This document shows positions 20,492-30,966 of a stretch of 32,874 nucleotides of DNA, one piece after another (positions within the stretch are counted from its first letter, which is position 1; every line of letters begins with the position of its first letter). Origin of the DNA: an uncultured Saprospiraceae bacterium (GTDB lineage Bacteria > Bacteroidota > Bacteroidia > Chitinophagales > Saprospiraceae). Under the pieces are notes generated by a model. That model was given only the letters and a program-made list of their open reading frames with translations, did no database searches and had not been told where the DNA came from. Location: positions 1-32,874 of the forward strand of contig CALHKJ010000198.1 in NCBI GenBank assembly GCA_938033975.1, written 5' to 3'. A program made the position numbers and the translations under genes.

Positions 20492-20506
20492 TAGGTAATT
20501 TACCTA
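20492..20506. promoter_or_regulatory. Palindrome TAGGTAATTTACCTA (site C), with an extra half-site TAGGTAATTA at 20516
   Basis: Perfect 7-1-7 inverted repeat 72 nt upstream of the STAS gene; same motif upstream of three further transcription units. Confidence 0.75.
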
Positions 20507-20578
20507 CAAAGAGATTAGGTAATTAAGCTGATTTATTTCCTTTCTTTTAATATCAAATTTGTAACTAAAATCCCAACG

Positions 20579-21025
20579 ATGGATAATGAAAATAAAAATT
20601 CAGAATCGAATGTTGCTATAAGCAGAAGAATTATTGGAGGAGATACTCCAATAGTCATTAATGAAATTTCTGATAGATGTTTGTTTACTAGTTTTTATGG
20701 AACACTTGATTCTGTAAGAATGAAGAGAGTCGTTGACGGCTTATTGGAAGTTGTCAACCGAAATGATAATGACATTATTATAGTTGATCTTAGTAATATC
20801 GATATTATTGATAGTTCCATCGCAGCACATTTAAAGGGACTAAACAAACTTCTCCAACTTCTAGGGATGGAAGTAATATTTTGTGGAATCAAACCAATTG
20901 TTGCAAGTAGCATGGTGGCTGCGGGAGTAGAATTAGATAATATTAATGTTGAAAAGAATTTAAAGCGAGCACTTTTACACGTGTATAAAAAACAAGGTCT
21001 TAAACTACAAAAATTAAGTACTTGA
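20579..21025 (+). CDS. STAS-domain anti-sigma-factor-antagonist-like protein (RsbS-like)
   Basis: NDIIIVDLSNIDIIDSSIAAHLKGLNKLLQLLGMEVIFCGIKPIVASSMVAAGVEL. Confidence 0.85.
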   Translation: MDNENKNSESNVAISRRIIGGDTPIVINEISDRCLFTSFYGTLDSVRMKRVVDGLLEVVNRNDNDIIIVDLSNIDIIDSSIAAHLKGLNKLLQLLGMEVIFCGIKPIVASSMVAAGVELDNINVEKNLKRALLHVYKKQGLKLQKLST

Positions 21026-22011
21026 TTGAATTAGAATCATATCGACTTGATTCCGAAAGAGATATTACAGATATTCTCAGATTAATAAGACAAGAAGCGC
21101 ACACTTGTGGTTATTCCAGATTAGAAACAGAACAGTTTTTACTTGGTATATCTGAAATCGCAACTAATGCTATAAGGCATGCAAGTGATGCAGTTGTTGA
21201 TTTTTCAATACTCAACAAAGGTGGTATATTAAAAATAGTCGTTTCAGATTCTGGACCTGGCATAGCAAATTTGGACCTAGCAAAAGTTGAAGGTTTTAGT
21301 ACAATTCATACAAGCCTTGGTATTGGTCTAGTCGTCGCAGAGCGATCTGTGGATCTAATGGATATTAAAACAGAAGTTGGTCAAGGAACGATTATAACCT
21401 TAGAAAAACATCGACCCATCGACAAACAAAATGTTGATTATGGTCTTGTAAGTATTTCGGATTCCAAATATGATTTTAATGGTGATCAATATATTATAAA
21501 AGAATACAATGGCGATTCAATTTTGGTGGCCCTAATTGATGGACCAGGTCAAGGTTACGATGCTTATGCTATTGCAAATTCTTGTACAAATTATATTGCA
21601 AAGCATTACCTAGATCCCATTGATCTGATCCTTGCTAATCTAGATTTTTTAATGAACAATAGCAATGATCAAGTTGGTATCACTGCATCAATCATGAGGA
21701 TTACGCCTGGGAAAATGATTTACAAAGGTTATGGGGATACTCATGCTTATCTTGTAAAGGATGGTTTTTACCATACTCTAACAAACCAAGGAGGTAGACT
21801 AGGTCACTTAAAAAAATATAGAAGTGGAATAAGTGAGTTTTCGTTTGAGGATAAAATTCAAATTATTTTATGTACAGATGGCTTATCTGTTCTTCCTTTA
21901 ACCAAAACACTTAATGGATCTGCTCAATTCATTGCTAATTCAATATTTGATGAGTTTCATAAACCAAATGGCGACGCATCTATTTTGTGCTTAAAATATC
22001 AGCGGTCATGA
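21022..22011 (+). CDS. RsbT-like HATPase fused to RsbX/SpoIIE-like PP2C phosphatase
   Basis: N-terminal HATPase (TEQFLLGISEIATNAIRHA...VSDSGPGI...GIGLVVAERSVDLMDIKTEVGQGTIITL); C-terminal PP2C-like LVALIDGPGQG...GYGDTHAYL...IILCTDGLSVLPL; TTG start overlapping the STAS stop. Confidence 0.82.
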   Translation: MIELESYRLDSERDITDILRLIRQEAHTCGYSRLETEQFLLGISEIATNAIRHASDAVVDFSILNKGGILKIVVSDSGPGIANLDLAKVEGFSTIHTSLGIGLVVAERSVDLMDIKTEVGQGTIITLEKHRPIDKQNVDYGLVSISDSKYDFNGDQYIIKEYNGDSILVALIDGPGQGYDAYAIANSCTNYIAKHYLDPIDLILANLDFLMNNSNDQVGITASIMRITPGKMIYKGYGDTHAYLVKDGFYHTLTNQGGRLGHLKKYRSGISEFSFEDKIQIILCTDGLSVLPLTKTLNGSAQFIANSIFDEFHKPNGDASILCLKYQRS

Positions 22012-22991
22012 AAAATGTCACCGAAGGCTTAGAGTTTTTATACCGTTTAGTTGAGCATTTTCCTGATGGTATTATTGTCTTTGATATTGAAGGAAAGGTT
22101 ACACTTTTAAATAGAGTTGCTTTCAAACAAATGGAGGCTAAGGGTTCGCTTTCAGAGTATATAGAACAGCCCGTTTTAAATCTATTGGGCAATAGTCCTT
22201 TGGCAGATAAGGTGAGATCTTGTATAACAGATGGGAGAACCGATTTTGAGTTTGAAGCCTTAAAAATTAATTCGCTATACTTGGATGTTTATGGGAAAAA
22301 AATAACAGAGGGGATGTTATTATTTTTATATGATATTACCCACAATATCAAAGCAAAAAATTTGACCTTAAACACTCTAATCCAAGGTCAAGAATTAGAG
22401 CGACAACGGATTGCAAAAGAAATTCATGATGGAATAGGACCTAGTCTTTCCACAATTAGACTTGGAATAGATATGGTGTCTACAATAGCAGAGAAAGAAA
22501 AAATAAAAAATAAACTTAACACTCTATCTTCTCAGGTTGCAGAAATTGCTGAAGACATTAGAAATATTTCACACGATTTAATGCCATCTAGTTTGCTTGA
22601 TTTTGGCATCAAGTCAGCTTTAGAGAATTTAGTTGCTAAAATAGAGGAAAACTCTCAGGTAAACATTGAAAAAAATATTCAGATAAAAGATGAGCATCCA
22701 TTTATGGATCAAAATCAGACTCTAAATATTTATAGAATCACTCAAGAATCAATTCATAACGGCCTTAAGCATGGGAATGCAAATGAGTTTACAATTTCTT
22801 TGAGTGAAAAAAACGAAACATTTCATTTAAAAATAGTTGACAACGGAAAGTCAGAAAAAAGTCAACATAAAGCAGGTATAGGATTGAAGAATATGCAAGC
22901 AAGAGTAAATAGCATGAATGGAACAATTTCAACAAAGGCTTTAAGGCCTAATGGATTTGAGGTTTATGTAAGAATTCCGTACAAAAATTAA
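22008..22991 (+). CDS. PAS-containing sensor histidine kinase (HisKA_3 type)
   Basis: PDGIIVFDIEGKVTLLNR PAS; ELERQRIAKEIHDGIGPSLSTIRLGID H-box; IYRITQESIHNGLKHGNA N-box; ATGA overlap with upstream gene. Confidence 0.9.
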   Translation: MKNVTEGLEFLYRLVEHFPDGIIVFDIEGKVTLLNRVAFKQMEAKGSLSEYIEQPVLNLLGNSPLADKVRSCITDGRTDFEFEALKINSLYLDVYGKKITEGMLLFLYDITHNIKAKNLTLNTLIQGQELERQRIAKEIHDGIGPSLSTIRLGIDMVSTIAEKEKIKNKLNTLSSQVAEIAEDIRNISHDLMPSSLLDFGIKSALENLVAKIEENSQVNIEKNIQIKDEHPFMDQNQTLNIYRITQESIHNGLKHGNANEFTISLSEKNETFHLKIVDNGKSEKSQHKAGIGLKNMQARVNSMNGTISTKALRPNGFEVYVRIPYKN

Positions 22992-22997
22992 AATATA

Positions 22998-23645
22998 ATG
23001 ATTGAAGTAGCAATTGTAGATGATCACAAAATGTTCCGGGATGGGGTTAAGGCTATGCTAGAAGCAAGCGAAGGAATTAGCGTATGTTGGACTGCAAGCA
23101 ATTCAAAAGAAACTTTAGAACAGATTGATACTTCAAAACCAGAAGTAATATTAATGGATATTACATTAGGAACAGAAAGTGGAATTACGCTAACAAAAAT
23201 AATTCTCGAAAAATTTCCCGATCAAAAGATCATTGCCGTTTCAATGCACTATGAGGATAGTTATATTGTAAAAATATTAGAACTTGGTGCCAAGGGATAT
23301 TTATTGAAAGATGCTGGTGGTGAAGAAATGGTCAATGCAATAAAGACAGTTGTAAAGGGAGATACTTACTACAGCAATCATGTTTCTCAGGTTCTTATCA
23401 AGCATATAACAAGTGGGACAAAGCCTAGTGATAAAAATATTAATATCCCATTGACAAAAAGAGAACAAGAGGTATTAACCCTAATAGCTCAAGAGTACTC
23501 TAATCCTGAAATAGCAAAAGAGTTATTTATCAGTATTAGAACTGTTGATACTCATAGGAGAAACTTGCTCGACAAATTACAGGCAAAAAATACAGCAGGC
23601 TTGGTAAAGTTTGCTATTAAATTTAACCTAATCGAATTAAAATGA
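22998..23645 (+). CDS. NarL/LuxR-family response regulator
   Basis: VAIVDDHKMFRDGVKAML, VILMDITLG receiver; C-terminal HTH LTKREQEVLTLIAQEYSNPEIAKELFISIRTVDTHRRNLLDKLQAKN. Confidence 0.95.
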   Translation: MIEVAIVDDHKMFRDGVKAMLEASEGISVCWTASNSKETLEQIDTSKPEVILMDITLGTESGITLTKIILEKFPDQKIIAVSMHYEDSYIVKILELGAKGYLLKDAGGEEMVNAIKTVVKGDTYYSNHVSQVLIKHITSGTKPSDKNINIPLTKREQEVLTLIAQEYSNPEIAKELFISIRTVDTHRRNLLDKLQAKNTAGLVKFAIKFNLIELK

Positions 23646-24484
23646 TTTTCATTAAGAAAAGCTTATATGCTAAATATGCTTTAGCAGTATTTGTTTTGAG
23701 CTCATTTTTTTATCGGCATCAAATTTCAAAATTTCCTTTTCTCGAACAGGGATTTGCTACTTTGAGGTTTATAGCTATGGTGTTTCTGTTTTTACAGACC
23801 AGCACTATTTTCTATAGAATTAGAAATAAAATCGAATTTAAAAATTCTGATAACATTATTGCTGCCATATCTAATGCATTTAAAATCATTGTTTACATTT
23901 CAATTTTTTTTCTCTTTCTTAGGTACAATGGTGTAAGTCCTATACAATTTTTTACTTCGATTTCTATAGTAGCAGCTGCTATTGCCATAGTATCAAAAGA
24001 TTATCTTACTTCAATCATTAGTGGATTTTTTATTTCTTTTACGAAAATCATAAATATTGGTGATTACATTTCCATTGGATCCATTAAAGGAATTGTAAAG
24101 GAAATAAAGTTGACTAAGTTGTTTTTAGAAAATGATCAGGGAGAATTAATAATATTAGGTAATGAAAAAGTGTTTTTAAGTGATATCGTCAACCATTCTA
24201 AATCCAATAAGCGCAGAGTAAGTCTAGAATTTGAATTACAACCTTCTGAATTATATGATATTGAACAGTTGGAAGAATCTCTTAAAAATTCTTTAAGTGA
24301 ATTTGATGAGCAGATTGTAAGTAATTCATTTTCCCTAAGAATAGACAATATTTTTATTGATAAAATCTGTATTACACTCTTCTATACCCTAGAGAAACTT
24401 GAGCCTGCAATTGAAAATGAAATCAGAAAAAAGACTATTCGCAATCTTATAAAGTTGATTCAATCAAAGCAAATATCCAAGTAG
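23642..24484 (+). CDS. MscS-family mechanosensitive channel-like protein
   Basis: VAAAIAIVSKDYLTSIISGFFISFTKIINIGDYISIGSIKGIVKEIKLTKLFLENDQGELIILGNEKVF; ATGA overlap with upstream gene. Confidence 0.85.
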   Translation: MIFIKKSLYAKYALAVFVLSSFFYRHQISKFPFLEQGFATLRFIAMVFLFLQTSTIFYRIRNKIEFKNSDNIIAAISNAFKIIVYISIFFLFLRYNGVSPIQFFTSISIVAAAIAIVSKDYLTSIISGFFISFTKIINIGDYISIGSIKGIVKEIKLTKLFLENDQGELIILGNEKVFLSDIVNHSKSNKRRVSLEFELQPSELYDIEQLEESLKNSLSEFDEQIVSNSFSLRIDNIFIDKICITLFYTLEKLEPAIENEIRKKTIRNLIKLIQSKQISK

Positions 24485-24496
24485 GTGATTTACCTA
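24482..24496. promoter_or_regulatory. Palindrome TAGGTGATTTACCTA (site A)
   Basis: 7-1-7 inverted repeat with one mismatch, 72 nt upstream of the OmpA ATG; first three bases are the MscS stop codon. Confidence 0.7.
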
Positions 24497-24568
24497 ATTT
24501 AAAAAATAGGCTTTTCACTCGACACCACAAGGCATTCTTATTCAGAAATTTGAGTAAAATTTATAAGA

Positions 24569-25711
24569 ATGAAAAACTTGAACATTATTTTATTTTGCTT
24601 ATTATCAACAGCTGTTTATTCTCAAACAATTATTCAAGGAAAAATAGTTGATGATAAAAACAATCGGTTACTTGACGATGTAGAATTGAGCATCTATAGT
24701 CTGGAAGAAGATGGATTGGTCACAACTGCCATCTCCAACCAACAAGGTCAATACATTGCTCAGATTCTAGAAGAAGGAAGTTATGTAATTAGGTGCATAA
24801 GACAAGCTTACTTTGATTTAGAACTTTTCGTAGATATTGACTCGGAAAATCAAACTTTAGACATCAAGATGTCAAGACAACCAGGCTACGAGTTTGAGGC
24901 TACCATCAAAGAATTATTTAGCTACTCTGTAGGTAAATTAGGAAAAGAGTTGAGAAATGTGAAAATTGAAGTTTACAATAACACACTCAATAAGGAGCTA
25001 TTAGTAATAGAGGACGATCCCGACAATACTTTCAAGGTAAACTTTGAAAGAGGCAATAGATATACGATTCTACTTAGAAAGAAAGGATACTTTGCTAAAA
25101 GGATTGAGGTCTATGTTGACATTGAAGATTGTATTCTTTGTTTTGAAGGGCTTGGAACCTATGTCTCTCCCGAAATCGAATCAGCACTTACCAATCAAAA
25201 TGAAAGAGGAAGTATCATTACAGATATTCCTATGAAAAAAATTATTCAAGATGAAAGCATTGTATTAGACAATATCTATTATGATTACAACAAATGGAAT
25301 ATTCGAAAAGATGCTAGACCATCTCTAGAAAAATTAGTCAACATATTACGCAGGAATCCAATCAAGATTGAGCTGGGTTCCCATACTGACAGTAGAGGCA
25401 AGGATGACTACAACTTAGATCTATCACAAAAAAGAGCTCAATCTGTTGTTGACTATGTAGTGTCAAGAGGAATAAATCCATCTCGTATCACCGCACAAGG
25501 CTACGGGGAATCTAAATTGGTAAATGCATGCTCTGACGGTGCTGAATGTACTGAAGAAGAGCACCAACTCAATAGAAGAACCGAATTTAAGGTTACTTCC
25601 TTTATGGAGGAATCTAACTTTGACAACAAATCATTAAGAGAAATAATTGAGCAAGAAAAAATTAGTGGATCAAGATTGAAGGAGTCAATCTTAATATTTG
25701 AAAACAACTAG
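24569..25711 (+). CDS. OmpA-family protein with N-terminal carboxypeptidase-regulatory-like repeats
   Basis: Signal peptide ...TAVYSQ; IVLDNIYYDYNKWNIRKDARPSLEKLVNILRRNPIKIELGSHTDSRGKDDYNLDLSQKRAQSVVDYV. Confidence 0.88.
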   Translation: MKNLNIILFCLLSTAVYSQTIIQGKIVDDKNNRLLDDVELSIYSLEEDGLVTTAISNQQGQYIAQILEEGSYVIRCIRQAYFDLELFVDIDSENQTLDIKMSRQPGYEFEATIKELFSYSVGKLGKELRNVKIEVYNNTLNKELLVIEDDPDNTFKVNFERGNRYTILLRKKGYFAKRIEVYVDIEDCILCFEGLGTYVSPEIESALTNQNERGSIITDIPMKKIIQDESIVLDNIYYDYNKWNIRKDARPSLEKLVNILRRNPIKIELGSHTDSRGKDDYNLDLSQKRAQSVVDYVVSRGINPSRITAQGYGESKLVNACSDGAECTEEEHQLNRRTEFKVTSFMEESNFDNKSLREIIEQEKISGSRLKESILIFENN

Positions 25712-25721
25712 TTTCTCTAAA

Positions 25722-25736
25722 TGGGTAATTTACCTA
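25722..25736. promoter_or_regulatory. Palindrome TGGGTAATTTACCTA (site B)
   Basis: 7-1-7 inverted repeat with one mismatch, 91 nt upstream of the mini-protein ATG. Confidence 0.7.
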
Positions 25737-25827
25737 GAACAAAAAATACGTTTTTCAGCAGACACACAAGAATTCAATTTACTACAATTTTGACTTATAA
25801 TAATTATTCATTTTTAACCATTTAATC

Positions 25828-25998
25828 ATGCCAGCAATTAACAAAAAAAATAAAGCAAGTTTAGCTAGAAAAAATGCAGAAGAATTGAAAGCAAAAAAGA
25901 AAGCAGGAAGAGATTCTAAAAAAGCAACAATGAGTTCAACTTCTGTCTCTAATAAAAAAGGAAAAAGCCCAATCGGTCAATCTAAGAAAAAGAAATAA
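25828..25998 (+). CDS. 56-aa Lys-rich basic mini-protein (absent from ORF track)
   Basis: MPAINKKNKASLARKNAEELKAKKKAGRDSKKATMSSTSVSNKKGKSPIGQSKKKK*; own promoter-like region with site B. Confidence 0.65.
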   Translation: MPAINKKNKASLARKNAEELKAKKKAGRDSKKATMSSTSVSNKKGKSPIGQSKKKK

Positions 25999-26023
25999 TT
26001 TAAACTTTTAGATATTCAAAATT

Positions 26024-26932
26024 ATGAAAAGAATACTTTTTACAATCGCAACAATAATTTTACTTCAATCTTGCATAAGCAAGAAAAAATATTTGGACCT
26101 TGGATATGAACTTGAAGTAACTACAAATGACTTGAGAGCAGCTCAGCATAACTTAGAAAATTGCAAAACTGAAAAAAAGCAATTGACAACACAAATAACT
26201 TCAGAAGTCACAAAATTTCAAACAATGAAAGAAACTCGTGACGAAATTGAAAACGCGTTAAGAACACAAATTGCTGATTTGCAGAAGCAAAGAGAACAGC
26301 AGTACTCTCAAGTTGGGGATCTTACAGTTCTGTCTAAGTCTGCCAATGAAAATATGAATCAAACAATAAGACAGTTGGAGCAAAAAGATAAATATATCCG
26401 CAATCTTATGGATGCAAAATCGAAAGCTGATTCTCTTAACTTAGCTCTAGCTGTAAACCTAAAATCAGTATTGAAGAAAGGGATAGAAGATGAAGATATA
26501 GAGGTAAAGGTTGACAAGACAGTAGTCTTTATAAATTTATCTGATAAAATGTTATTCCAATCTGGTAGTTCTCAGCTTACTCCAAGATCTAGTGAGGTAT
26601 TGTCAAAAATTGCGGAAATCATAAAATCAAGACCGGAGCTAGAATTATTGGTAGAAGGCTATACTGACAATGTCCCAATTAAAAATAGCTGTATTGAAGA
26701 TAACTGGGATTTGAGTGTAAAAAGATCAGCTCAGGTTGTTAGAACTTTACAAAAAGAATATGGTGTCAATCCGGATAAACTTATCGCAGCAGGTAGAGGT
26801 GAATACAACGCACTAGGTGATAACATGACAGCAGAAGGAAAATCATTAAACAGAAGAACTAGAATTATCCTTATGCCTAAACTCAATCAATTTTACGATT
26901 TACTAAAACCTCAAACGGTTAACTTAAACTAG
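26024..26932 (+). CDS. OmpA-family lipoprotein with coiled-coil N-terminus
   Basis: Lipobox ILLQSCISKKKY; coiled coil; ELLVEGYTDNVPIKNSCIEDNWDLSVKRSAQVVRTLQKEYGVNPDKLIAAGRGEYNAL...NRRTRIILMPK. Confidence 0.9.
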   Translation: MKRILFTIATIILLQSCISKKKYLDLGYELEVTTNDLRAAQHNLENCKTEKKQLTTQITSEVTKFQTMKETRDEIENALRTQIADLQKQREQQYSQVGDLTVLSKSANENMNQTIRQLEQKDKYIRNLMDAKSKADSLNLALAVNLKSVLKKGIEDEDIEVKVDKTVVFINLSDKMLFQSGSSQLTPRSSEVLSKIAEIIKSRPELELLVEGYTDNVPIKNSCIEDNWDLSVKRSAQVVRTLQKEYGVNPDKLIAAGRGEYNALGDNMTAEGKSLNRRTRIILMPKLNQFYDLLKPQTVNLN

Positions 26933-26957
26933 AAAAACAATAACATTAAGAATTATG

Positions 26958-27011
26958 GTGATCCCTTCACTATCTCCAACCTCTTATGAGGTTCGGAGAT
27001 AGTAGGGTCAC
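26958..27011 (+). repeat. Long imperfect hairpin 1
   Basis: GTGATCCC..ACTATCTCCAACCTC-TTAT-GAGGTTCGGAGATAGT.GGGTCAC. Confidence 0.85.
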
Positions 27012-27036
27012 TTTCAAAATTAATGATAAAAAATAT

Positions 27037-27096
27037 AATGACCCTACTGCTATCTAAGACTTGTACTAAGTTAGGATAGTAGAGGGTCATTTCTTT
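27037..27096 (+). terminator. Hairpin 2 (related to hairpin 1) plus T-rich tail, terminator-like
   Basis: AATGACCCT..CTATCTAAGACTT-GTACT-AAGTTAGGATAG..AGGGTCATT followed by TTCTTTTT. Confidence 0.65.
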
Positions 27097-27172
27097 TTAT
27101 TGATATATCTTGTAGTATGTAACCCACAGCTCACTCTTTGAGCCTCATTGTATCTAAAAATAAAATAGTCAT

Positions 27173-28378
27173 ATGATTGCACTTATGTCACAATTTGGTA
27201 GCTCAATTAATTTCATCTGCATCGTAGGCCTCTTGGCCGTTTGTGCAAGTGTTATTCTCAAAAAACTAAAGCAACCCAAATTAGTTGCATACATACTGAT
27301 AGGAGTGCTAATAGGTCCTTTTTCCCTTGATTTAATTGCAGATGAAGAATCAATTAAATTTATTGGAGAGCTAGGAATTATTCTTTTGTTTTTCTTCATC
27401 GGTATGGAAATTGATTTGCGTAATTTTCTTAAAGATTGGCGTTTGGCAATCTTTGGAACGTTGACACAAATCCTTCTAAGCATCGCAATTGTTTTTTTGA
27501 TGGGACAATTTTGGGATTGGCCCATCAATAGAATAGTAGTCCTGGGTTTTGTTATTGCTTTATCTAGTTCTGCTGTAATTTTTAAATTACTTGAAGAAAA
27601 AAATTTAATGCAAGAAAAAATAGGACGCAATGTATCCAGTATCTTACTTGCTCAAGATATTGCCATAGCTCCCATTTTAATTTTAATTTCAATTTTAGCT
27701 GGAAACAATACAGATAGTGAATCTTATTTAATGAAAATAATTGGCGGAGTAATTGTTATATCCGTTATTTCTTATGTGGCTATAAAAAAAGAAATATCGT
27801 GGCTCCCCTTTAAGTCAACAATTAAGGACGATCATGAAATGCAAGTTTTTATGGCCTTGTTCTTCTGTTTTTTTGGTGCATTGGTAGCTAATTTTTTTGG
27901 AATTTCCGAAGCACTTGGGGCATTCATAGGTGGTTTAGTTATGCATGCTGGAAAAGCAACAGAATGGATACATGATGCTATTCACTCCTTCAGGATATTA
28001 TTCGTAGCTATATTTTTTATTAGTATTGGAGCACAGTTAAATTTGGAGTTTTTAATTACAAACTGGAAAATTTTACTCTATTTACTAATAGCTGTATATC
28101 TTACTAATCACTTTATAAATACGCTTATATTAAAAGCATATAAAAACAGTTGGAAATTATCACTAATTGGTGGAGCGCTATTAGGCCAAATTGGTGAATT
28201 AAGCTTTTTAATCTGCATCGCTGCATTCAATCTAGGTGTTCTTAGCCAGTTTGCTTATGATTTTACGATCTCATTGATTTCTCTTACTATTTTTATTAGT
28301 CCTATTTGGATCTTATTGACTGAATATCTAGTCGATAAATTTATGCCAACAAAAGTGACAAGATCCAATTTTTCATAA
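27173..28378 (+). CDS. CPA2/KefB-type cation:proton antiporter
   Basis: LKQPKLVAYILIGVLIGP, GELGIILLFFFIGMEIDLRNF, ALSSSAVIFKLLEEKNLM, SEALGAFIGGLVM; no TrkA-N domain in the 401 aa. Confidence 0.88.
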   Translation: MIALMSQFGSSINFICIVGLLAVCASVILKKLKQPKLVAYILIGVLIGPFSLDLIADEESIKFIGELGIILLFFFIGMEIDLRNFLKDWRLAIFGTLTQILLSIAIVFLMGQFWDWPINRIVVLGFVIALSSSAVIFKLLEEKNLMQEKIGRNVSSILLAQDIAIAPILILISILAGNNTDSESYLMKIIGGVIVISVISYVAIKKEISWLPFKSTIKDDHEMQVFMALFFCFFGALVANFFGISEALGAFIGGLVMHAGKATEWIHDAIHSFRILFVAIFFISIGAQLNLEFLITNWKILLYLLIAVYLTNHFINTLILKAYKNSWKLSLIGGALLGQIGELSFLICIAAFNLGVLSQFAYDFTISLISLTIFISPIWILLTEYLVDKFMPTKVTRSNFS

Positions 28379-28396
28379 ATAGGTATCAATTAAAAA

Positions 28397-28411
28397 TAGG
28401 TAATTCACTCA
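28397..28411. promoter_or_regulatory. Degenerate palindrome TAGGTAATTCACTCA (site D), preceded by half-site TAGGTAT at 28380
   Basis: Left arm identical to sites C and B apart from B's A-to-G change; 68 nt upstream of the UspA ATG. Confidence 0.5.
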
Positions 28412-28479
28412 TTTTGAAAATAAGTAGAATAGCTGATTTAGTATAATAGCTTTAACTATACTTTTATAAAAAATTAGAT

Positions 28480-29283
28480 ATGGAATTTCAAAATATTTTT
28501 GTTTCAATTGATGTAAATAACAGCAATACTCAGCTCATTAAATTCAGCTTTAAATTGGCTGAAAAATTTAATGCTAATATCTCTTTTCTAAATTGTTATC
28601 ACCCAACTATTGATGATGCCAATGACAATGAAAACAACTTAGATTCAAAGCACCTAAATGAACTTTCAGCCCAAGTAGAGCTTATTGCTCCCTTACATGA
28701 AAAAATAGATTATTCTTGTTTCGTGCACGCTGGGTTTGTAGCGGAGAGTATTCCAAGCTTTATTGATCAAAATGATTTTGACCTTATGCTTATTGGAACT
28801 TCGCAAGGTAAATATTCTCAATTTGCTTCAGGCATTGGCTATTATTTATTGGAAAAAATAGAATTTCCAGTCATCATAGTTCCTGAATCCTTCAGATTAA
28901 TTGACCTTGATCATGTAATATTTAATCTTGAATTTGAGTTCAGGGAAATTGACATAATATACAATCTACTTATCTTATGTAATTCTTTAGGTTCGCATTT
29001 AAGTTGCATACATGCATGTGAGAAAGTAAATTTAATAGAAGCAACAAAAAACTTGAATACTTATAAAAATATGTTTGAAGGTCATATTTTGGAATCTGTA
29101 ATAGATTTTGAATTAATTGGAGATGATAAATTTAAAAGTATAGAAAAGTATGCAACTGAGAATGAGGCAGATCTTATCGTTTTAGGAAAAACAAGAAAAA
29201 CCTGGAAGAATCAATTTGTCAGCACAATAGAAGAAAAATTGGGACAAAGGATAAATATTCCAATAATGATTATTGAATTATAA
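28480..29283 (+). CDS. Universal stress protein, two-domain
   Basis: FQNIFVSIDVNNSNTQLIKFSFKLAEKF...LMLIGTSQGKYSQFASGIGYYLLEKIEFPVIIVPE. Confidence 0.82.
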   Translation: MEFQNIFVSIDVNNSNTQLIKFSFKLAEKFNANISFLNCYHPTIDDANDNENNLDSKHLNELSAQVELIAPLHEKIDYSCFVHAGFVAESIPSFIDQNDFDLMLIGTSQGKYSQFASGIGYYLLEKIEFPVIIVPESFRLIDLDHVIFNLEFEFREIDIIYNLLILCNSLGSHLSCIHACEKVNLIEATKNLNTYKNMFEGHILESVIDFELIGDDKFKSIEKYATENEADLIVLGKTRKTWKNQFVSTIEEKLGQRINIPIMIIEL

Positions 29284-29711
29284 TGTACTATTCAAGGATT
29301 TATCTTCATCTTTTGTGGACAACTGAAAATTGTCAAAACTCTCTTAACAATTACTCAAAAAAATTGGGTTCATTTCTGATGAGTCATGCAGAAAAAAAAG
29401 GTATTGATTGTTTAATGATTTCTGTACTAGCTAATCATGTACATTGTTTGATTAAAATAAACTCAACACAAAGTGTAAGTGACATAGTACAAATCCTAAA
29501 AGGGAGCAGTTCGTTATGGATAAACAAAAACTCTTTTCTTCCTTATAAGTTCAAATGGGAGGATGAATATTTTGCCTTCAGTATAAGTTACTCTCAACTT
29601 TCTGAATTTAAAAACTATCTAATGAATCAATCGAAATTTCACGAAACTGTTGGAGTAAAAAAAGAAATCCAAAATATTAGTAATGTTTATAAACTAAATT
29701 ACAAATTATGA
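29283..29711 (+). CDS. Y1 (HUH) IS200-like transposase-domain protein embedded in a stress operon
   Basis: HVHCLI HUH motif, IVQILKGSSSLWINKN, FKWEDEYFAFSISYSQLSEFKNYLMNQSKFHE with candidate catalytic Tyr; TAATG and ATGA overlaps with flanking genes. Confidence 0.85.
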   Translation: MYYSRIYLHLLWTTENCQNSLNNYSKKLGSFLMSHAEKKGIDCLMISVLANHVHCLIKINSTQSVSDIVQILKGSSSLWINKNSFLPYKFKWEDEYFAFSISYSQLSEFKNYLMNQSKFHETVGVKKEIQNISNVYKLNYKL

Positions 29712-30142
29712 ATATAGATTTAAACATAGATGTTTTAAAATTCATGGCGACGAATATTACTGTTGTTCACCCAAAGGAAAGCATTAGTGCAGCAGAAAAA
29801 AATTTTAAAAGAGTAAATAAAAAAATATTACCTGTTGTCTCAAATGGTGATTTAAGAGGAATTCTCTTTGACAGGGACTTTGAAAGTTTAAATAAAACAA
29901 ATTCTTATATAGTAAAGATATCTGGACAAAATTATTCTTTTGGCGGAATGACCGTAGAAGACTACATGACAACAGACTTCTATGTATTAAGTGTAAACTC
30001 TAAACTTTCAGACGTAGTTAAATTCTTTACTGAAAAGAGACAATACTACATTCCAATCGTGGATGATAAAAAACTAGTAGGCTTTATAACTCCATTTGAC
30101 ATTTTTGCATATTTACAAGATTTACAAAAAACTGAATTATGA
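29708..30142 (+). CDS. CBS-domain pair protein
   Basis: ATNITVVHPKESISAAEKNFKRVNKKILPVVSNGDLRGILFDRDFE...VEDYMTTDFYVLSVNSKLSDVVKFFTEKRQYYIPIVDDKKLVGFITPFDIF. Confidence 0.88.
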   Translation: MNIDLNIDVLKFMATNITVVHPKESISAAEKNFKRVNKKILPVVSNGDLRGILFDRDFESLNKTNSYIVKISGQNYSFGGMTVEDYMTTDFYVLSVNSKLSDVVKFFTEKRQYYIPIVDDKKLVGFITPFDIFAYLQDLQKTEL

Positions 30143-30966
30143 AAAATTTACTATTAATTTCAAATATTTCTTCTCAAAATGAGGCCCTTATAAAATATGC
30201 AGCAAAGTTTTGTAAGCATTATGGTAGCAAGTTACATGTATTACATATTGCAGATACTTCTTCTGCTGTTTTGGTGTCATCACCTAAATATTATAAAGCT
30301 TTCGATATCGAGTATAAAGTTGATAAACCAAGAAAGGCAATACAAGAAATATACAAAGCAACGGATGGTATTTTGGATAGAGAATTTTTTGATGTTAAAA
30401 TTATTGCAGGAAATCAAAGTAGGATTCTTGATAATTTTATAAATGAAAATTTTATTGATTTTATCATTTTGGGTAATTCAGATCTAGACGTAGAATCTGA
30501 TCTAAAAGAGCACAAAAATCTACTTCTAAATCTTATTAATACACCCTTGATGATTGTGCCCGAATTTCATACTTTTCAACCAATTAGCAAGTTCAATTTT
30601 TTAACAACTAAAACACAAAATGACCTAAATCATATTGTTAAACTTATTGGATATTTTCCTAAATCAAAAATCAGGTTGACACATTTGGTAACAGCGGAAG
30701 ATCATGAAATTCAAAATCAAAAGTCTGATAAATGGTTAGAGTATGTAAAAGATAAAGCTGGAAAAATTATTCAATATGAAAGTATCATTGAAGATTTGAA
30801 TTCCTATGTAAAACAAGAAAACTATTCAGTAATCAAAAGACATGATGCCATTGTATTTACGACTAATAAACGTAACTTTTGGACAAGATTATTTGACCCA
30901 AGCACTACCCTAGGATTTTTAACTTCTTTGGAAATACCTGCTGTTATCTTCAAAATCAAAGAATAG
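30139..30966 (+). CDS. Universal stress protein
   Basis: MKNLLLISNISSQNEALIKYAAKFCKHYGSKLHVLHI...IDFIILGNSDLD...NLINTPLMIVPE; ATGA overlap with CBS gene. Confidence 0.78.
   Translation: MKNLLLISNISSQNEALIKYAAKFCKHYGSKLHVLHIADTSSAVLVSSPKYYKAFDIEYKVDKPRKAIQEIYKATDGILDREFFDVKIIAGNQSRILDNFINENFIDFIILGNSDLDVESDLKEHKNLLLNLINTPLMIVPEFHTFQPISKFNFLTTKTQNDLNHIVKLIGYFPKSKIRLTHLVTAEDHEIQNQKSDKWLEYVKDKAGKIIQYESIIEDLNSYVKQENYSVIKRHDAIVFTTNKRNFWTRLFDPSTTLGFLTSLEIPAVIFKIKE

Follow-up and report, generated by a model that had tools for sequence, protein, structure and literature searches.

Comparison with described systems

The closest described relatives of the system reported here are VraSR of Staphylococcus and LiaSR of Bacillus, whose NarL-type response regulators (RRs) lie near the branch of the RR encoded in the DNA that we studied. 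VraR and LiaR each have a primary site, which for LiaR spans about −76 to −52, and a less conserved secondary one that is reached on phosphorylation; in vraSR this second site is located downstream of the first (PMC7191749). A second point of comparison is provided by the RsbRSTX stressosome modules with two-component output, which have been reported for Vibrio vulnificus and others, including Bacteroidetes (PMC9237108). The DNA in question, hereafter the window, is a stretch of 32,874 nucleotides (contig CALHKJ010000198.1) from an uncultured Saprospiraceae bacterium. It carries an operon at 20579–24484 (+) for a STAS-domain protein, a fused ATPase/phosphatase, a PAS-HisKA_3 kinase, a NarL-type RR and an MscS channel, and both this operon and several neighboring genes are preceded by a palindrome with the consensus TAGGTRA-N-TYACCTA. 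Our comparative analyses make it very probable that this palindrome is the operator of the RR (22998–23645), which would activate the operon that encodes it and a limited number of envelope and stress genes, most of them adjacent.

Among solved structures VraR was the best match to the window RR (E 3e-55). The likeness to VraR and LiaR extends, at the level of sequence, to a pair of sites upstream of the promoter, one primary and the other secondary and weaker, and to envelope-stress genes as the putative targets. The operator itself is different: the LiaR motif is T(N4)C(N4)G(N4)A (PMC7191749), whereas TAGGTAAATTACCTA does not have the required C and G at these spacings. The window system also differs from VraSR and LiaSR in its Bacteroidota-type promoter, its PAS-domain kinase and its RsbS/RsbT-RsbX-like switch, and no LiaF-like gene was seen in the window operon.

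With the RsbRSTX modules the locus shares a STAS protein, a switch kinase, a PP2C-type phosphatase and a two-component output that are encoded together. It differs from them in that the kinase and phosphatase form one fused protein and in that a candidate operator and a putative local regulon could be assigned to the output regulator. There was no RsbR (a sensor domain plus STAS, about 280 aa) in the window operon, nor was one identified by length in the 100%-complete carrier genome G609, whose STAS frames are 137, 162, 551, 576, and 622 aa.

Palindromes in the window, the genome and orthologous loci

A previous, sequence-only reading of the window had claimed four copies of the palindrome, each followed by a −7-like box at a near-constant distance. 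All four are present: the palindromes at 20492, 24482 and 25722 are near-perfect, that at 28397 is a weak copy, and each lies 66–67 bp 5′ of TTTG (starting at 20558, 24549, 25789) or, for the weak copy, TTTA (28463). Below, O2 denotes the primary operator and O3 a secondary operator that the earlier reading had not noted, as was also true of the unusual composition of the −7 box.

20492–20506 (+): O2 of the STAS operon, candidate autoregulatory site, TAGGTAATTTACCTA; orthologous to L066:201, L069:10104, L071:9834 and L077:13736 (oriented coordinates)
20516–20530 (+): O3 of the STAS operon, TAGGTAATTAAGCTG, 42 bp before TTTG
20554–20561 (+): −7 element of the STAS operon, CAAATTTG, C at −12
24482–24496 (+): O2 of the OmpA gene, TAGGTGATTTACCTA; orthologous to L071:13835, L077:16894 and a site in L108
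24507–24521 (+): O3 of the OmpA gene, TAGGCTTTTCACTCG
24545–24552 (+): −7 element of the OmpA gene, GAAATTTG
25722–25736 (+): O2 before the Lys-rich mini-protein, TGGGTAATTTACCTA; equivalent promoter and downstream gene in L108
25747–25761 (+): O3 of the mini-protein promoter, TACGTTTTTCAGCAG
25785–25792 (+): −7 element of the mini-protein promoter, CAATTTTG
28397–28411 (+): weak O2 of the Usp operon, TAGGTAATTCACTCA, three mismatches
28421–28435 (+): weak O3 of the Usp operon, TAAGTAGAATAGCTG
28459–28466 (+): −7 element of the Usp operon, TACTTTTA, TTTA

These sites exceed chance expectation. The window holds nine loose matches (three mismatches or fewer, both strands) against 1.64 expected, a number reached by none of 100 shuffles. 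Sites that score at least 13 with a position weight matrix (PWM) and have TTTG at +66/+67 number three, whereas 300 Markov sequences averaged 0.003 (maximum 1), and the combination of motif and TTTG was absent from the reversed-sequence control.

The assembly to which the window belongs (3.6 Mb, 577 contigs, 67% complete) has three copies of the strict word TAGGTRAWTYACCTA, two in the window and one on contig C467 (2238–2252, minus strand: TAGGTAATTCACCTA), where it is followed by TACC at the second-operator position and by TTTG at +66. This off-window operator, which was not part of the earlier reading, precedes the gene for a 174-aa secreted protein. Weaker matches (two to three mismatches, with TTK) showed no excess over a reversed-pattern control and were mostly within genes. 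At genome scale, information is present only in the near-exact sites. As the weaker matches were not enriched, the regulon looks small and mostly local.

Our comparison covered 395 Saprospiraceae genomes, mostly metagenome-assembled genomes (MAGs) and several of them incomplete. The operon was identified in 17 of these (window genome included) with a profile of the STAS protein that was blind to the motif, and the regions around the 16 other operon loci were compared. Most of them have one to four intergenic palindromes beside the operon, and 32 of 34 sites scoring at least 13 were intergenic, though genes make up 83% of the DNA. Near-exact palindromes were found 5′ of the STAS gene (L066, L069, L071, L077, and the window), between the RR/MscS gene and the next gene (L027, L067, L068, L069, L071, L072, L075, L077, L079, and the window), before OmpA and Usp genes and, in L066, before the MscS gene. 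The UspA promoter orthologous to the weak window site has a perfect palindrome in another genus (L071:16511, oriented coordinates) and likewise TTTA at +67. In many genera (L027, L068, L072, L073, L074, L075, L078, L079, L105, and others) a gene for an extracytoplasmic function (ECF) sigma factor lies under an operator near the RR; no such gene is at the corresponding place in the window genome. Neither of the sequence-level outcomes that the earlier reading had named as refuting it was observed: the distribution of the motif is non-random, and orthologous promoters in other genera retain it in the same register relative to the promoter as in the window.

Association of the motif with the response regulator

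The sequence-only reading had attributed the palindrome to the RR of the operon, an attribution that our comparisons support.

22998–23645 (+): NarL/LuxR-type RR, the proposed reader of the palindrome (Response_reg 3.5e-25, GerE 1.5e-18)

This protein has the domain order of the NarL/LuxR type, an N-terminal receiver and a C-terminal GerE helix-turn-helix, and D8, D9, D54, and K104 of its phospho-acceptor set are invariant, and S82 nearly so, among 13 orthologues.

The exact motif was present in 8 of the 17 operon genomes versus 16 of the 378 others (Fisher p = 9e-7). When genomes were instead grouped by a clade of RRs, set by a gap in profile scores (E <= about 1e-88, a cut-off picked after inspection of the list), the motif was present in 14/39 and 10/356 genomes, respectively (p 8e-10); without five profile members that were first noticed via the motif, the count for the clade was 9/34 (p 5e-6). 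No further members of the clade were found at E <= 1e-80 among the other genomes sampled from the class.

Six of the 16 motif-bearing genomes without the operon (G254, G159, G548, G649, G780, and G628) have an RR of the same clade near the site, 47–67% identical, at loci that do not have the STAS and fused-kinase genes. The possibility that the motif follows the STAS and RsbT-X genes was rejected on the basis of such loci. A further case, genome G002 from the genus of the window, was found by RR similarity only. At its locus (L199) the RR is encoded behind a GAF-type kinase, and TAGGTAATATGCCTA, followed by TTTG at +65, lies in front of the kinase–RR operon. Of all window proteins, only the RR has a homologue in this region. 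As the motif is found beside the RR without the rest of the operon, and as the RR is the only shared protein in G002, we conclude that the motif follows the RR. Autoregulation, also proposed in the sequence-only reading, is supported by the candidate sites 5′ of the RR operon in the window, in L066, L069, L071, and L077, and in the congeneric L199.

The same G002 locus has a second phased operator (L199 9818–13240) before an operon of decarboxylase, agmatinase-like and deoxyhypusine-synthase-like genes, which suggests that polyamine metabolism may be a target in this sister species.

An alternative is that another transcription factor, encoded elsewhere, binds the palindrome and that the RR is merely a co-member of the regulon. 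Since a site precedes the RR operon too, this operon would resemble any target, and the binding of the RR to the palindrome is itself something that we infer. However, the motif tracks the RR through unrelated gene contexts, down to the single shared gene in G002, exact sites are strongly enriched in genomes with the RR clade, and this clade was not found in the other genomes sampled from the class. In addition, two palindromic dimer sites constitute a geometry that fits NarL-type RRs. We therefore consider a separate transcription factor unlikely.

Promoter layout

The consensus of the Bacteroidota housekeeping sigma factor is TAnnTTTG at −12 to −5 (PMC9723704). With the −7 box so numbered, the two operators are centered near −67 (O2) and −43 (O3). 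TTTG begins at +66/+67 from the palindrome in 21 of 31 intergenic sites (p about 5e-34) and several of the others have TTTA at this position. In L027, L068, L072, and L075 TTTG is at +87/+88, with an extra palindrome copy 20–21 bp upstream. When PWM scores around the sites were averaged, the highest peak after the main one was at +25, and a degenerate second operator, TASGYTTTTNRCYG, is located +23 to +25 from the palindrome. In 31 of 38 sites the O3–TTTG distance was 42 bp (permutation maximum 23, p 5e-5). The proximal operator thus keeps a fixed position relative to the core promoter, and the 65/66/67 variation between palindrome and TTTG is mostly variation in the O2–O3 spacing.

The −7 box of the regulated promoters reads [G/C]AnnTTTG (SAnnTTTG) rather than TAnnTTTG. 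The A at −11 was present in 43/43 aligned promoters, as in Bacteroidota sigma-A promoters, and TTTG at −8 to −5 is likewise shared with them. The regulated promoters differ at −12, which is G or C in 37/43 versus 14/44 of the other upstream NAnnTTTG boxes of the same loci (p 3e-7), while the T of sigma-A promoters is found in 4/43 phased promoters versus 25/44 other boxes. They also differ in having no −33 box, as TTG was not concentrated at the expected position in ~40 aligned promoters. At the predicted start, A is favored (32/43). Promoters that depend on an activator are expected to have a weakened −7 box, and the combination of such a box with the absent −33 box and the promoter-proximal second operator fits a promoter of this kind.

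The same features could be read as a promoter recognized by an alternative sigma factor with a preference for SAnnTTTG, with the palindrome being ancillary, a possibility to which the composition at −12, the lack of a −33 box and the frequency of ECF sigma genes among the targets lend some credence. Against it, no other element is as strongly conserved as the palindrome, which lies far upstream of where sigma makes contact, and the weakened −7 box would be expected under activation. Moreover, TTTG and the A at −11 agree with the housekeeping consensus (PMC9723704). An alternative sigma factor is, in our opinion, quite improbable.

A third explanation is that the RR represses these promoters instead of activating them. 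The sign of regulation is not given by operators alone and the proximal operator abuts the polymerase region; nonetheless, the main site near −67 is too far upstream for simple steric repression, and promoters with no −33 box and an off-consensus −7 box should be near silent unaided. Repression is thus very unlikely, and activation by the RR is the reading that we retain. Finally, chance or a recent duplication of one promoter within the window, which might account for the similarity of the 24482 and 25722 sites beyond the palindrome itself, is refuted by the comparative data, as O2, O3 and TTTG stay in register across ~40 promoters from different genera whose spacers have diverged freely, and as the reversed-sequence control gave zero.

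Observations that weigh against an RR operator

Several observations count against our assignment of the palindrome to the RR. Its support is comparative as a whole, in that the motif tracks the RR; binding, phosphorylation dependence and the sign of regulation are inferred. Since the seed of the PWM came from these same loci, raw enrichment is partly circular, although the tests of phasing, O3 and co-occurrence are not. The recognition helix of the RR (ISIRTVDTHRRNLL) is nearly constant among carriers, which counts in favor of the assignment but leaves no room for co-variation with the motif variant (TAGGT versus TACGC) to show. Several operon genomes carry only variant sites, e.g., TACGCAATTTACCTA, the operon loci L076 and L080 have no clear phased site, and of ten held-out RR loci, whose flanks were short, six had no site scoring at least 9. 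Conversely, ten genomes that do not belong to the RR clade carry the exact word. In five of these it is inside genes; another of the ten, G774, has a properly phased site and no RR was found in it, perhaps because its assembly is incomplete. In the window, site 28397, with three mismatches and TTTA, is unconvincing by itself.

Genes of the locus

The other genes of the operon and its surroundings are as follows.

20579–21025 (+): STAS-domain protein, RsbS-like (Pfam PF01740, E 2.4e-12)
21022–22011 (+): HATPase_c_2 (PF13581) and SpoIIE-type phosphatase (PF07228) in one chain, by domain matches
21987–22991 (+): PAS - HisKA_3 - HATPase_c sensor kinase, NarL-type partner, by domain matches
23642–24484 (+): MscS-type channel, final gene of the operon, by domain match
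24569–25711 (+): OmpA-family outer-membrane protein, candidate target, by domain match
25828–25998 (+): 56-aa Lys-rich mini-protein, candidate target, kept with its site in L108
26024–26932 (+): second OmpA-family protein, by domain match
27173: Na/H antiporter, between the second OmpA gene and the Usp operon
28480–30966 (+): UspA - Y1-transposase-like - CBS - Usp operon, candidate target, by domain matches

Based on its domains, the protein at 21022–22011 is a predicted RsbT/RsbW-like kinase fused to an RsbX-like phosphatase. The closest relatives of the STAS protein on named public contigs are from Saprospiraceae MAGs. The mini-protein had no NCBIfam match, and its gene probably shares a transcript with the second OmpA gene (26024). 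Between the latter and the antiporter gene are hairpin-like repeats (26964–27098, with an inverted repeat at 27030–27045 / 27083–27098), which are possibly terminators. The Usp-CBS-Usp operon has within it a Y1 (IS200-type) transposase-family protein (29283–29711) that is kept in the operon in other genera (L066, L071) with 52–56% identity and an intact HxH motif. This embedded protein looks domesticated, judging from its conservation, and not like a passing insertion.

Proposed model and implications

In the model that we propose, the PAS histidine kinase would phosphorylate the RR encoded in its own operon, with an inducing signal that, from the nature of the targets, may be envelope or osmotic stress. 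A phosphorylated RR dimer would bind tightly to the palindrome near −67, a high-affinity operator, and this distal dimer would help a second dimer onto the degenerate site near −43, adjoining RNA polymerase. Both dimers could then recruit polymerase to promoters that have no −33 box and a weakened SAnnTTTG −7 box. By these means, the RR would switch on its own operon together with the genes for the OmpA proteins and the Lys-rich mini-protein and the Usp/CBS operon, joined in other genera by the gene for an ECF sigma factor. An additional input, received by either the kinase or the RR, probably comes from the RsbS-like STAS protein and the RsbT/RsbX-like fusion.

More tentatively, and with somewhat less than an even chance of being correct, the locus may represent a Saprospiraceae-specific stress switch. 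Here a minimal partner-switch of RsbS and a fused RsbT-RsbX, with no RsbR or SigB, would drive a NarL-type RR whose regulon has a double operator and a defective SAnnTTTG box, the signal being relayed to an ECF sigma factor in many genera.

We found no description of this operator or regulon in the open-access literature and, as far as we know, the operators of Bacteroidota NarL-type regulators are largely undescribed. To our knowledge, Bacteroidota also do not have the stress regulators SigB and RpoS. For this locus, our analyses offer a regulator, a probable operator, a promoter layout and a list of targets. They suggest that activator-dependent promoters of the phylum may in general be built with a second operator at −43, no −33 box and G/C at −12, and they point to a concrete output that RsbS/RsbT-type modules may have in bacteria in which SigB is absent.

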